NCBI RefSeq assembly: GCF_001895145.1 | Contig: NZ_BDIR01000004.1 | Coordinates: 1 to 64,000, forward strand | Length of the DNA: 64,000 bases | From: Arcobacter sp. LA11 | Lineage (GTDB): Bacteria > Campylobacterota > Campylobacteria > Campylobacterales > Arcobacteraceae | Direction of reading: 5' to 3' | Translations under genes and position numbers: made by a program | The notes under the pieces: generated by a model | Told to the model about the DNA's origin: nothing | Databases searched by the model: none | The model's input: the letters and a program-made list of their open reading frames with translations, nothing else | Shown here: positions 2 to 48,993 of the stretch, one piece after another | Position numbering within the stretch: position 1 is the first letter of the stretch | Layout of the letters: the number at the start of each line of letters is the position of its first letter

Positions 2-3000
2 AATAATATAACATTAACAGTAGATGAAACTGAAGGAGTGGATTCTCCAGCAGATGATAATGGAGATAGATCTTCAAAAGCAGATTTCTCAAGCCTATTC
101 TCAACAGTTTTAGTTGGTGGAGTATCAACAGCAAACTATGGAACAGATGGAGCAGGAAGTGTATCTTATTCATTAAGCTTAACTAACTCAGCAGGAACAA
201 TTTTAACACTTGGGTCAGGATTATATGCACTAGATGCAACTGATACAGTTACTACAGATGGTGATGAAATCGGACAAGGTGATGAAATCATTATGTCTGT
301 AAATGCATCAGGAGTTATCGAAGGTAAAGCAAATGGTGAAGTTTATTTTACAATCAGTACAGATGCAAATGGAGTAGTAACATTTACTCAAACTAAAAAT
401 ATTTGGCATGATGATACAAGTGATCATAATGATGCAGAAGGTATTGCATTATCTAAATTAGCTAATGAAGATGTATCAATAGTATTAACACAAACAGTAA
501 CAGATGCAGATGGAGATACAGATACAGCATCAGTTAAATTAGTGTCAAGTGAAGATACAGAAGATGTAGCACAATTTAATATCTTAGATGATGGACCAAG
601 TGCAAATATGTTAAAAGGTGATGACTCAAAAGTTATTTTAAAAACAGATGATATAGATACAAAAGGTGCTGCTTCTGATACAGATGTAACAACAGCTAGC
701 TTTAGTGGAGTATTCAGTGTTTCTCCAACTTCTGGTTATGGAACAGATGGGGCAGGTAAAACTGAGATAGAATATAAATTAGAAGCTGTAGACGGAACAG
801 ATTCAGGATTAACAAGTCAAGGTGTAGCAATTACTCTTAGTCTTGTAAATGGGGAAGTAGTAGGAACTGCTGGTTCAATAGAAGTATTTACAGTTTCTGT
901 AAATAAAACTACAGGACAAGTAACACTTACTCAAAATGAACCAATTGATCATGTAGATGAAAATGCAGATGGTGATGCAACAAACAACGATGCGAATCTT
1001 GCAACATTAACTGATAACTTAATTAAACTTAGTGCAACAGTTGAAATTACAGATGCAGATGGAGATACTGCAAGTGATACAGAAACAGTAAATATTGGAT
1101 CAAATCTTAAATTTACAGATGATACACCAAGTGCGAGTGACACTGATTTAGATGTGAAATTAGATGTAGATCCAGTAATTACAAACTTAACAATCGTACT
1201 TGATATTTCAGGAAGTATGTCAGGACAAAAACTTGAGATTCAAAAAACAGCTGCACAAAATTTAATTGAAGAGTATTCAAAACTTGGACAAGTAAATGTT
1301 AAAATTGTAACATTTAATGCAGGTTCTTCAAGTGAAGCTTGGATAACAAATGATGTTCAAGGTGCAAAAGATGCAATCACAAATATTACAACTGCAAGTG
1401 GAAATACAAACTATGAAGCAGCTTTAGATGAAGTAATGACTAGTTATGATACGGTAGGCGATCCAGAGCCATCTTCAACTCAAGATGTATTCTACTTCTT
1501 ATCAGATGGAGTACCAACAGTAGGTGATGCTGATAATAATATTAATGCTTGGAAAGATTTTGCAAATGCAGAGTTTGATGATGTATTTGTAATTGGAATG
1601 GGTGCAAATGCTGATTTAGATGGAAATGATAGAGGGAGTTTAGAAGATATTACAAATGTAGTTGGTGATGCAGATACTACAGGACATCCAGCTGTAAAAG
1701 TAATTGACTTCTCTGATTTATCAGATACATTAATTTCAACAGTAAATACAAATGTAACAGTTATTCACACTGGTGGAACAAATACATTAGATTATGATTT
1801 TGGAGCTGATGGACCAGCTGATGGAACAGGAATTAATCCAGATGCAGATAAGTTATCATTTGTATGGGGAACAGCAACTGGAACAGATTCAAATGGAGCT
1901 GCTTTAACATTAACATGGGAAGTTTCTTCAGATGGTAAAACATTAATTGGTAAAGATGGAACAGATACAGTTATTAAGATAGAAGCAAACTTAAGTACTA
2001 AAACTTATGATATTGTAGAGATTTCTCCTACTTTAGATATTGCGACATTAGAGATTCCATTTACTGTAACAGATGCAGATGGAGATAGTACTACTTCAAA
2101 AGTTACTATTGATATCGTACCTGATGGTAATCCAGAAATTATTGGAGATAAAAATACAGTATATGAAAAAGGATTAGATGATCCAATTGATAATAGTGAA
2201 AAAGATACAGGAGTAGTTAAAGTTAAATCTCCAGATGGTATTGCAACTATTACAATCGGTGGAGTTGTATTCACAGAAGCAGAACTTCTTGCTACAAATA
2301 CAACGCCATCAAGTCCAATTGATACTGTTGAAGGTCTAATGGTTATTACTGGTTATGACAAAGCATTAGGTGAAGTTTCTTATGAATATACATTAAAAGA
2401 TAATTTACCTCATACAACTGCACCAGGACAAATAATTGTAGATACTATTAGTTTAGAAATAAAAGATCCAGATGGAGATACAAGTACTGGAACAGTTATT
2501 GTTGATATTATAGATGATGTACCTACAGTAGATGTGACTAAAACAAATGCAATAGAGCCAACATTAACAGTAGATGAGACAGACTTAACAGTAGATGCTA
2601 AAGCAAGTTTTGCAGGAATGTTTACTTCAACAGAAGATGCAGGAGCAGATGGAAAAGATGCTTCAAAATCAAGTACTGAATATACATTAGATGTAAAAGC
2701 AGTAAATGCAGATACAGGATTAGTAGATATTGCAACAGGTGAAAAAGTTGTATTAACAGAAAATGCATCAGGAGTAGTAGAAGGTAGAACAGAAACTACA
2801 GGTGAATTAGTATTTACAGTATCTGTAAATGAAACAACTGGTGAAGTTACACTTGATCAAAAAAGAGCATTAACTCATCCAGATGCAACAAATCCAGATG
2901 ATGAAGTAAGTTTAACAGCAGATGATTTAGTTACATTAACAAGAACAGATGTATTAACAGATAATGATGGTGATAAAGCTACAGATTCTGAAAGTATTGA

Positions 3001-46296: not shown

Positions 46297-46647
46297 ATGA
46301 TAGGTATAGATGTAACATCAGTAAATAGAATAAAAAATATGTATGAAAAATTTGGAAGACGTGCTTATGAACGTTTTTTAGATGATGAAGAAATAGCCTT
46401 AATTAAGCGCCCTGAGACTGCTGCAGGATTCTGGGCAGCAAAAGAAGCTGCGAGTAAAGCAATTGGTACAGGTATTGGAAAAGAGTGTTCTTTTCATGAT
46501 TTAAAGATTAAAAAAAGTAAAAAAGGTGCTCCTAAATTAAAATATTCAAAATCTATACGTAAAAAATATAAAATTGATAAGACATTACTTTCTATAACTC
46601 ATGACCAAGGAGTTGCTATTGCAGTTGTTCACAATATTCAAAAATAG
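46297..46647 (+). CDS. acpS: Holo-[acyl-carrier-protein] synthase
   Basis: A 116-residue enzyme that moves phosphopantetheine from CoA to acyl carrier protein. Magnesium ligands appear in IGIDVTSVNRI (D5) and FWAAKEAASKAIG (Glu). Divergent from the OppB-like gene with only 32 bases between. Confidence 0.95.
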   Translation: MIGIDVTSVNRIKNMYEKFGRRAYERFLDDEEIALIKRPETAAGFWAAKEAASKAIGTGIGKECSFHDLKIKKSKKGAPKLKYSKSIRKKYKIDKTLLSITHDQGVAIAVVHNIQK

Positions 46648-46657
46648 AACTTGTAAT

Positions 46658-47734
46658 ATGTCTAACAATGAGAGTTATTTAAGAATAGTACTCTCTTTAT
46701 TATTGTTAGTTTTAGCATTTATAAATAGCTGGATGCTTTTATTTATGATGTCTTTGATGCTTTTTTATACTGGTATTTCAAAAGTTTGTTTTTTATATCA
46801 ATTATTTGATATTAATAAAATGATTAAGTTAGAAACACTATATTTAAGATATTTGCCAAAATATAATCCTGACCCAGTTTTTATTTTAGATGAAGAGGGA
46901 AAAGCAGTTTTTAAAAACGAACCTGCAAAAGAAAAACTTACTATTGATGATTTTCAAACTATCTTAGGTAAAGATACTCCTAAGGAGATTATAGAAGAAG
47001 AAAAGCTTATATCTATTCAATATGAGTGTGATGTAAGTAGAGTTTATCTGATAAATTTTAAAGGGGTTAAAAGTATTAATTTTATTTTAGCTTACACTAC
47101 AGATATTACAGCTGCAATTGAAGCTGAACAAGAGATAATTAATACTCAAAAAGATGTTGTTTATACTATGGGTGCTATTGGTGAAACAAGAAGTAAAGAG
47201 ACAGGAAATCATGTAAAAAGAGTTGCTATTTATTCTGAAATACTTGCATTAAAATATGGTTTGCCAAAAGAAGAGGCTGAACTTTTAAAGTTAGCAAGTC
47301 CTATGCATGATATTGGAAAAGTTGGGATAAAAGATGAAATATTAAATAAACCTGGAAAACTAACTGATGATGAGTTTAAGATTATGAAAACACACTCAAC
47401 TCTTGGATATAATATGCTTAAAAATTCTGATAAACCTATTTTAAAAGCAGCTGCAATTGTAGCACAACAACATCATGAAAAATGGGATGGTACAGGTTAT
47501 CCAAAAAAACTAAGTGGAGAGAATATTCATATTTTTGGTAGGATTACTGCTGTTGCAGATGTTTTTGATGCACTTGGTAGCAATAGGGTTTATAAAAAAG
47601 CTTGGGAGCTTGATAGAATTTTTGAACTATTTAAAGAAGAGAGAGGGAAACATTTTGATCCAAAGTTAGTGGATCTTTTTTTTGAACATTTTGAAGAAAT
47701 AAATAAGATTAGAATAAAATATAAAGATAAATAG
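46658..47734 (+). CDS. Membrane-anchored HD-GYP phosphodiesterase
   Basis: A 358-residue protein with two hydrophobic helices near the N-terminus, a PAS-like domain (about 60-165) and an HD-GYP domain with HDIGKVGIKDEILNKPGKL (His217) and QQHHEKWDGTGYP. The family degrades cyclic di-GMP, lowering biofilm and raising motility. The start at 46658 is used because the longer frame begins inside acpS. A link to the adhesin at the window start is possible but not shown. Confidence 0.85.
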   Translation: MSNNESYLRIVLSLLLLVLAFINSWMLLFMMSLMLFYTGISKVCFLYQLFDINKMIKLETLYLRYLPKYNPDPVFILDEEGKAVFKNEPAKEKLTIDDFQTILGKDTPKEIIEEEKLISIQYECDVSRVYLINFKGVKSINFILAYTTDITAAIEAEQEIINTQKDVVYTMGAIGETRSKETGNHVKRVAIYSEILALKYGLPKEEAELLKLASPMHDIGKVGIKDEILNKPGKLTDDEFKIMKTHSTLGYNMLKNSDKPILKAAAIVAQQHHEKWDGTGYPKKLSGENIHIFGRITAVADVFDALGSNRVYKKAWELDRIFELFKEERGKHFDPKLVDLFFEHFEEINKIRIKYKDK

Positions 47735-47735
47735 A

Positions 47736-47761
47736 ACTAAATAGATTTTACTCTATTTAGT
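47736..47761. terminator. Shared terminator of HD-GYP and transducer genes
   Basis: A perfect 10-bp stem ACTAAATAGA/TCTATTTAGT with a TTTTAC loop lies between the two convergent stop codons. Confidence 0.65.
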
Positions 47762-48619
47762 CTCTAGGTTTGTTATTAGAGTTTGCCCTAAGTTTATATT
47801 TGTTTGAGAACCTTCAATTGCTTTTCTTGTATCCTCAACTACACCATTAATTTTATTTTTAATTGTATCAGAACTTTCAAGTTGTCTATTTACATTACAA
47901 GAGATGCTATTTGAATTCTCACTATTTTGATTAGATACTTCAATTAAATTCTTTAATTTTTCTATAGCTTCTTTAGATATTTCTACACTATTTTTTACTA
48001 ATGATTGAACAGCTTCATTTTTACTTGTAACTGAACTTGTCATTTGGCTAATTGTATCAATTTCACTACCAATATTTAAAGTAGATTGTTTTGATGAAGC
48101 TGCAAGTTTTTTTACTTCAGATGCAACAATAGCAAAGCCTCTACCATATTCTTTTGCTTTTGAAGCTTCGATTGCGGCATTTATTGCAAGTAAGTTTGTC
48201 TGCATAGATATTTTATCATTTACTTGAACTAATTCTGTTATAGAACTATTTTTTTCATTTAGTTCAGAGATAGTTTTTGAAAATTCATCTATTGCATCTG
48301 ACATATTGTTTATTAAATCAAATAATTTTTGAACTAATTCAATAACATTTGTACTTTCATTTGATGCAAGTTTTGCAGAATTTAGAGAGTCACTTGACAT
48401 AGCTTGTATTTCATTTGAGTGATTTATAAAATTATTAACTAGTTTTTCAATGTTTTCAATTTCTGTTAATCTGGTTTTTGAGGCGCTATTTACATTTATT
48501 GCATTGTTAGTAATATTTTGTGCTATATTCAATGAATCATTTAGATTTAATTTATCAAAAAGTGTTGCTTTTTGTTTTAAAATTTCTAGCTCATTTGAGT
48601 CTATTTCTTGTGTTGACAC
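47753..48619 (-). CDS. Soluble methyl-accepting chemotaxis transducer
   Basis: A 288-residue protein with no membrane helix or ligand domain of known type. Residues about 60-285 form the signalling coiled coil; the hairpin tip reads [28 protein letters not shown], which binds CheA and CheW. No CheR-docking pentapeptide is present. It overlaps the NrtS-like gene by 19 bases and is probably controlled together with it, suggesting the small membrane protein provides input. Confidence 0.88.
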
Positions 48620-48993
48620 TTTTTATCCTTAATTGATGATATTTTCCATTGAGTTTTTTCATTACAATTATCACAAAATGGTATAACTTGCTCTTTTTTT
48701 ACTTCTAAACAGCTATTACAACTAGTACATCTTAGTATTGCATTATCAACTGCTTTCTCACCTACATGGAATTTTAATTTCATAGTAATTGCTGTATACA
48801 TTGAAACACAAAAGGGCACTGTAAATGTTAGAAAAAATTTAAAAAGATTTATATTTTGAAAATCTAATATAATTAGTTTTTCACCTTGGTTGATAAAATT
48901 AAGTATTATACCTACAACTAAAGCAATTTTTAATGCTCTAATAATAAGTTGTTTAGTACTTGCAATGGATAAAATAAGTTGTAGGTTTTGCAA
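48601..48993 (-). CDS. NrtS-like two-helix membrane protein with zinc-ribbon end
   Basis: A 130-residue protein. Residues 15-72 match the NrtS pattern ([20 protein letters not shown] and [14 protein letters not shown]), two short helices of a family linked to nitrate/nitrite passage in some bacteria. The tail carries a zinc ribbon with C89, C92, C95, C107 and C110. The start is TTG with AAGGA about five bases upstream. Overlap with the soluble transducer gene suggests a two-part sensor. The NrtS assignment is by pattern and not verified. Confidence 0.65.

Follow-up and report, generated by a model that had tools for sequence, protein, structure and literature searches.

Campylobacter jejuni has a bipartite energy-taxis receptor, CetA/CetB, encoded by two adjacent genes (PMC2628428), and Magnetospirillum has a split receptor, CetBA2, whose genes overlap (PMC12442639). 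In CetA/CetB, the transducer CetA holds membrane helices and a HAMP domain, and CetB is a PAS protein. Direct chemotaxis to nitrate also exists, through a different domain: McpN of Pseudomonas aeruginosa is a nitrate chemoreceptor whose own periplasmic PilJ domain binds the ligand (PMC6381276), and the same report describes nitrate taxis by energy taxis as common.

The window analysed here (the whole stretch of 64,000 nucleotides from Arcobacter sp. LA11, contig NZ_BDIR01000004.1) holds two genes on the minus strand that may encode a receptor of comparable construction. The first, nrtS-ZnR (48601..48993), encodes a 130-aa protein from a TTG start preceded by AGAAGGA, and the second (47753..48619) encodes a soluble MCP of 288 aa from a GTG start preceded by AAGGA. 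Both frames, and their overlap of 19 bases, are present as the earlier note had described them; the overlap (48601..48619, minus strand) joins the stop and last codons of nrtS with the MCP start, and the AAGGA ribosome-binding site of the MCP lies inside the 3' end of nrtS. The same 19-base overlap is found at L041, L042, L044 and L045, and five genomes of the window's type have it; it measures 20 bases in G076, and elsewhere there is none, or a short gap. Scans of the locus for promoters and terminators did no better than on shuffles. A third gene (46601..47734, plus strand) converges on the pair and encodes a YgaP-type transmembrane part, a PAS-like region and an HD-GYP domain.

Set beside CetA/CetB and CetBA2, the pair is alike in that a presumed chemoreceptor is divided between two neighbouring genes that are co-transcribed or overlap, and in that one of the two products is membrane-bound. 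Unlike in CetAB, the transducer in the window is soluble, and the membrane protein paired with it belongs to the NrtS family and has no PAS; the features of CetA/CetB (a transducer with TM, HAMP and HCD and a PAS partner) were not found in the window pair. By analogy, the two genes may work like a split receptor with the CetAB layout turned round, and they are not a member of CetAB. With McpN the pair would share the output, taxis to nitrate, but unlike in McpN no PilJ domain was found in NrtS or MCP at E ≤ 1. We consider the best reading to be a bipartite chemoreceptor, with NrtS as its membrane half and the MCP as its soluble half, at a probability of about 52%. No report of an NrtS-MCP pair was found in the open-access papers searched.

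Proteins of the NrtS family have two helices and function in the membrane as dimers or larger assemblies. The 130-aa protein scored 30.5 bits against the NCBIfam model NF038050, for which the curated cut-off is 25, so that the NrtS identity proposed in the earlier note was accepted, and not rejected, by the profile search. The cut-off was passed by all 10 further proteins scored (nine NrtS and one fusion), with relatives at 35-48.5 bits. The window protein resembles NrtS of NF038050 in its putative two-helix core and has the core residues V27, G28, L31, N35, V59, P60 and V63 in common with Nostoc NrtS. Its structure model, of low confidence (pLDDT 63.7), has helices at 14-35 and 50-72 followed by a beta ribbon, and only the first helix exceeds the hydropathy threshold of 1.6. 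A structure search started from this model returned nothing at E ≤ 0.001 and otherwise only weak matches to MCM ribbons, and when the NrtS alignment was run as a profile against the PDB, the best E was 0.24. Read by the positive-inside rule, the charge pattern at both ends favours a topology with both termini inside, and the ribbon would therefore be cytosolic. Unlike known NrtS, most Campylobacterota members carry this ribbon and are placed by a chemoreceptor or c-di-GMP gene, and transport is for them a prediction.

The 288-aa partner matches the MCPsignal domain at 95.5 bits (cut-off 34.6). No other Pfam domain was found over its cut-off in this protein, HAMP included, nor any hydrophobic stretch, the maximum 19-residue Kyte-Doolittle mean being 0.74, which agrees with the earlier description of a transducer without a sensor domain of its own. 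The model (pLDDT 73.1) consists of a helix at 8-23, a long helix at 26-153, a turn and a returning helix at 158-286, and contains a signalling hairpin only. The best matches among solved structures are PDB 2ch7 and 3g67, presumably from Thermotoga, which are cytoplasmic chemoreceptors with the same bare hairpin. We know of no NrtS partner for hairpins of this type; to our knowledge, cytoplasmic chemoreceptors that consist of the bare hairpin and lack a sensor domain are common, and an input is known for few of them.

Conservation along the hairpin of NrtS-linked MCPs has two maxima, at the tip and at the base. In a gap-free alignment anchored at the tip, comprising 13 NrtS-linked MCPs from which near-duplicates were left out, base conservation reached 0.74 both at -106..-98 and at +119..127. 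The same positions gave 0.22 and 0.27 in 30 ordinary MCPs taken from three genomes with NrtS, and 0.54 and 0.41 in the remaining 19 MCPs encoded by the window's genome. The conserved base is no more than suggestive of a docking patch, because the first of these control sets spans a wider diversity than the NrtS-linked set.

Searches of the family, phylum and order, combined, yielded 24 genomes with NrtS or a remnant of it. NrtS was found in 14/104 genomes of the family, in 8/397 genomes drawn from the phylum (NCBIfam profile), and in 16/398 drawn from the order (alignment search), 14 of which were kept. One of the two dropped, G037, had the only long open frame of the order scan (386 aa); it encodes a 382-aa transporter-like protein, by eye an inorganic phosphate (PiT-type) permease, and is a false match. 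The other, G550, has a 39-residue match with no open frame and weak matches to several NrtS rows, and may be a remnant. An intact MCP of the subfamily lies directly downstream of nrtS in 17 of the 24 genomes (G000, G056, G065, G066, G035, G074, G076, G094, G096, G290, G375, G407, G471, G512, G574, G584 and G261), is decayed in four (G086, G087, G092 and G564) and is absent in three (G091, G095 and G409). The co-occurrence thus extends well beyond the source species, and the case named in the earlier note as speaking against the pair, a restriction to this species, was not observed; the natural NrtS-MCP fusions that it had suggested looking for did not turn up among the loci and genomes searched.

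Approached from the other side, a profile of the N-terminal 85-95 residues of the MCP detected 12/398 genomes of the order; nrtS is present in 11 of them and its remnant in the twelfth, G261. In a hypergeometric test this overlap has a probability of 3e-21 counted over genomes and of 2e-12 counted over genera; both values are uncorrected for kinship, use the 14 NrtS-positive genomes left after G037 and G550 had been dropped, and have to be read in the knowledge that adjacency alone makes nrtS and MCP travel together. Within the family, a close MCP relative occurs in 9/104 genomes, eight of them with NrtS; in the ninth, G093, the MCP is cut by a contig end and is uninformative on nrtS. In Campylobacterota, at least nine genera have inherited nrtS and MCP together, and the pair occupies several unrelated contexts (the L041 type, L043/L046, L053, L037 and L038). 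Because pN is far below pS between species for both nrtS and MCP, and because the layout recurs in many genomes, the arrangement is not due to chance. NrtS and MCP probably form one functional unit, and we lean slightly towards the two proteins touching.

The pattern of gain and loss bears on what kind of unit this would be. In G574 and G584 (L071/L072) the order is c-di-GMP protein, nrtS, MCP and amidase-like gene; in G553 (L187) the amidase-like gene comes immediately after that for the c-di-GMP protein, nrtS and MCP being missing together. Both genes are remnants in G564, as is the YgaP gene, judged by eye. Five genomes (G086, G087, G092, G091 and G095) have an intact NrtS with the MCP broken or gone, and G261 is the converse case, with an intact MCP and a decayed nrtS. 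In the two pairs tested of NrtS without MCP, pS was 0.394 and pN 0.042, and pS 0.192 and pN 0.031, respectively; NrtS is kept under purifying selection after loss of the MCP and therefore has some function without it, which counts against an obligate pairing of the two proteins. This survival speaks for independent uptake and sensing, in which NrtS would only move nitrate or nitrite and the MCP would sense a cytosolic consequence (redox, nitrite or NO) or nothing specific, the two sharing a substrate without contact. Core residues in common with Nostoc and Vibrio NrtS have also been retained, and energy taxis to nitrate is common according to the McpN report (PMC6381276). However, the MCP has no Pfam sensor domain and yet a conserved hairpin base, and its subfamily occurred in no genome of the 398-genome draw that lacks nrtS or a remnant; we therefore hold separate uptake and sensing to be unlikely. 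For the bipartite receptor, as the earlier note had put it forward, the operon and the pattern of gain and loss fit, and the part that is not supported in the form given there is the ribbon as point of contact, discussed below.

Outside Campylobacterota, tblastn of 72,556 plasmid records matched two with the window NrtS as query (Vibrio and Ciceribacter) and four with Vibrio NrtS, which added two Nostoc plasmids. The plasmid of Vibrio sp. THAF190c carries an nrtS-MCP-EAL operon with nrtS and MCP in the same order as in Campylobacterota: an 80-aa NrtS without ribbon (48.5 bits to NF038050) overlaps by one base a 305-aa MCP that has MCPsignal only, and the EAL protein is next. Among the plasmid records searched, the pair outside Campylobacterota rests on this one operon, and a scan of viral contigs with the Vibrio MCP gave no match. 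In the Ciceribacter thiooxidans plasmid NZ_CP059897.1 (L080:6891-8231), NrtS is the C-terminus of a 446-aa TIGR03169-type pyridine nucleotide-disulphide oxidoreductase, a fusion that suggests a redox link for NrtS. The Nostoc plasmids (L081 and L082) have nrtS without MCP, near genes for a GMC oxidoreductase, a globin and an alternative oxidase, with a nitroreductase nearby in L081; this neighbourhood looks like a stress or NO-related island.

The NrtS tail in the window contains six cysteines (89, 92, 95, 107, 110 and 126), and not five as first counted, of which only C89, C92, C107 and C110 recur in relatives. They make up two pairs of putative metal ligands, in the form CxxC..CxxC in 18/24 genomes and CxxH..CxxC in G512, where the exchange of C for H keeps a zinc ligand. 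The ribbon is absent from the NrtS of G094, G409 and G471 among the 24 genomes, and the two remnants, G564 and G261, are uninformative; the ribbon stays below every Pfam cut-off (DUF1451 20.8 against 26.1 bits, NOB1 15.6 against 24.9). The earlier note had the ribbon touching the transducer, which the comparison does not support: NrtS without ribbon adjoins an intact subfamily MCP in Vibrio (L079), G471 (L075) and G094 (L043), and for this reason the ribbon cannot be an indispensable contact. We discarded it as the core of an essential NrtS-MCP contact. The same three cases, together with its absence in G409 and the scores below the Pfam cut-offs, make it very improbable that the zinc ribbon is itself the sensor, responding to metal, redox or NO through its thiols, with the membrane part merely anchoring it beside the MCP. 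What would favour such a sensor are the four cysteines in 18/24 genomes, with one more genome showing the C-to-H swap, and the position of Nostoc nrtS near globin and alternative oxidase genes. For a bipartite receptor, the ribbon would rather have been added in particular lineages, where it may stabilise or tune docking.

In the mechanism that we propose for the bipartite receptor, NrtS would be the signal input, binding or passing nitrate or nitrite. The MCP would pick up the state of NrtS at its conserved hairpin base (approximately residues 37-72 against 244-279) and at the extra N-terminal helix 8-23, and the MCP tip would in turn act on CheA/CheW. Nitrate or nitrite as the cue is tentative, a little short of an even chance, and draws on the name of the NrtS family and on the nitrate/nitrite transport work on NrtS reportedly done by Maeda et al. 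2019. NapA is over cut-off in 17/24 NrtS genomes, twice in the window's genome, and was not found in G375, G261, G574 and G584, of which G375 and G261 are rated 99-100% complete. The pair therefore does not need a periplasmic nitrate reductase, and NapA, considered as a correlate of the pair, was set aside as not universal.

We infer a nitrate/nitrite chemoreceptor, a good reading and one that is testable. It would give one subfamily of bare chemoreceptors a concrete membrane partner, predict nitrate or nitrite as its cue and tie that partner to c-di-GMP, and it points to a part in signalling for NrtS, whose annotation is that of a transporter only. In a broader version, somewhat unlikely in our estimation, NrtS would be a transceptor, a membrane module of general use for signal input that connects, as a protein in its own right, to two outputs: a soluble chemoreceptor of the bare type and a YgaP-anchored c-di-GMP enzyme. 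If it were true, passage or binding of nitrate or nitrite by a two-helix transporter would be read directly by a chemotaxis hairpin, and the sensing half of a split receptor would be a protein of a transporter family.

The product of the third gene (46601..47734) matches YgaP-like_TM at 39.6 bits and HD_5 at 113.4 bits, both over cut-off, with PAS below the Pfam cut-off, and is a probable c-di-GMP phosphodiesterase. This recurring neighbour, like the retention of NrtS after MCP loss, had been overlooked in the earlier note. A relative (HD-GYP or GGDEF-EAL) adjoins NrtS in 15/24 neighbourhoods, counting G095, where the gene is split in two frames, and G512, where it is cut by a contig end. The relatives in L038-L050, L071, L072 and L075 share the N-terminal half (YgaP-like and PAS-like), which is followed by HD-GYP in some and by GGDEF-EAL in others. 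This N-terminal part occurs in 32/398 genomes of the order, namely in 10/14 with NrtS and in 22/384 others, so the third gene also exists without NrtS. As part of the bipartite receptor, it may provide an optional second output, coupling the same input to c-di-GMP.

The frequency of this neighbour, and the EAL protein of the Vibrio operon, could also mean that taxis is not the role of the MCP-like protein, or not its main one, and that it acts together with NrtS to regulate the c-di-GMP enzyme encoded next to them. In Arcobacteraceae the tip of the NrtS-linked MCP is unlike that of every one of the 19 other MCPs in the window's genome, which has three CheW-domain proteins, one CheA-like, one CheW-like and one CheV-like as assigned by length; this too would suit such a regulator. 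Against it, the tip resembles that of ordinary local MCPs in three genomes of two other families (30/55 matches examined), and the pair stands without a c-di-GMP neighbour in G074, G094, G096 and G407, which leaves a mainly regulatory role quite improbable beside the bipartite chemoreceptor. The tips of the 19/19 other MCPs (L125-L143) of the window's genome are nearly identical to each other, and those in the three genomes of two other families are of another type. In G409 (L040:6520-6759), an NrtS without ribbon directly follows a YgaP-TM GGDEF-EAL protein, with no MCP, as a c-di-GMP-only version of the arrangement.
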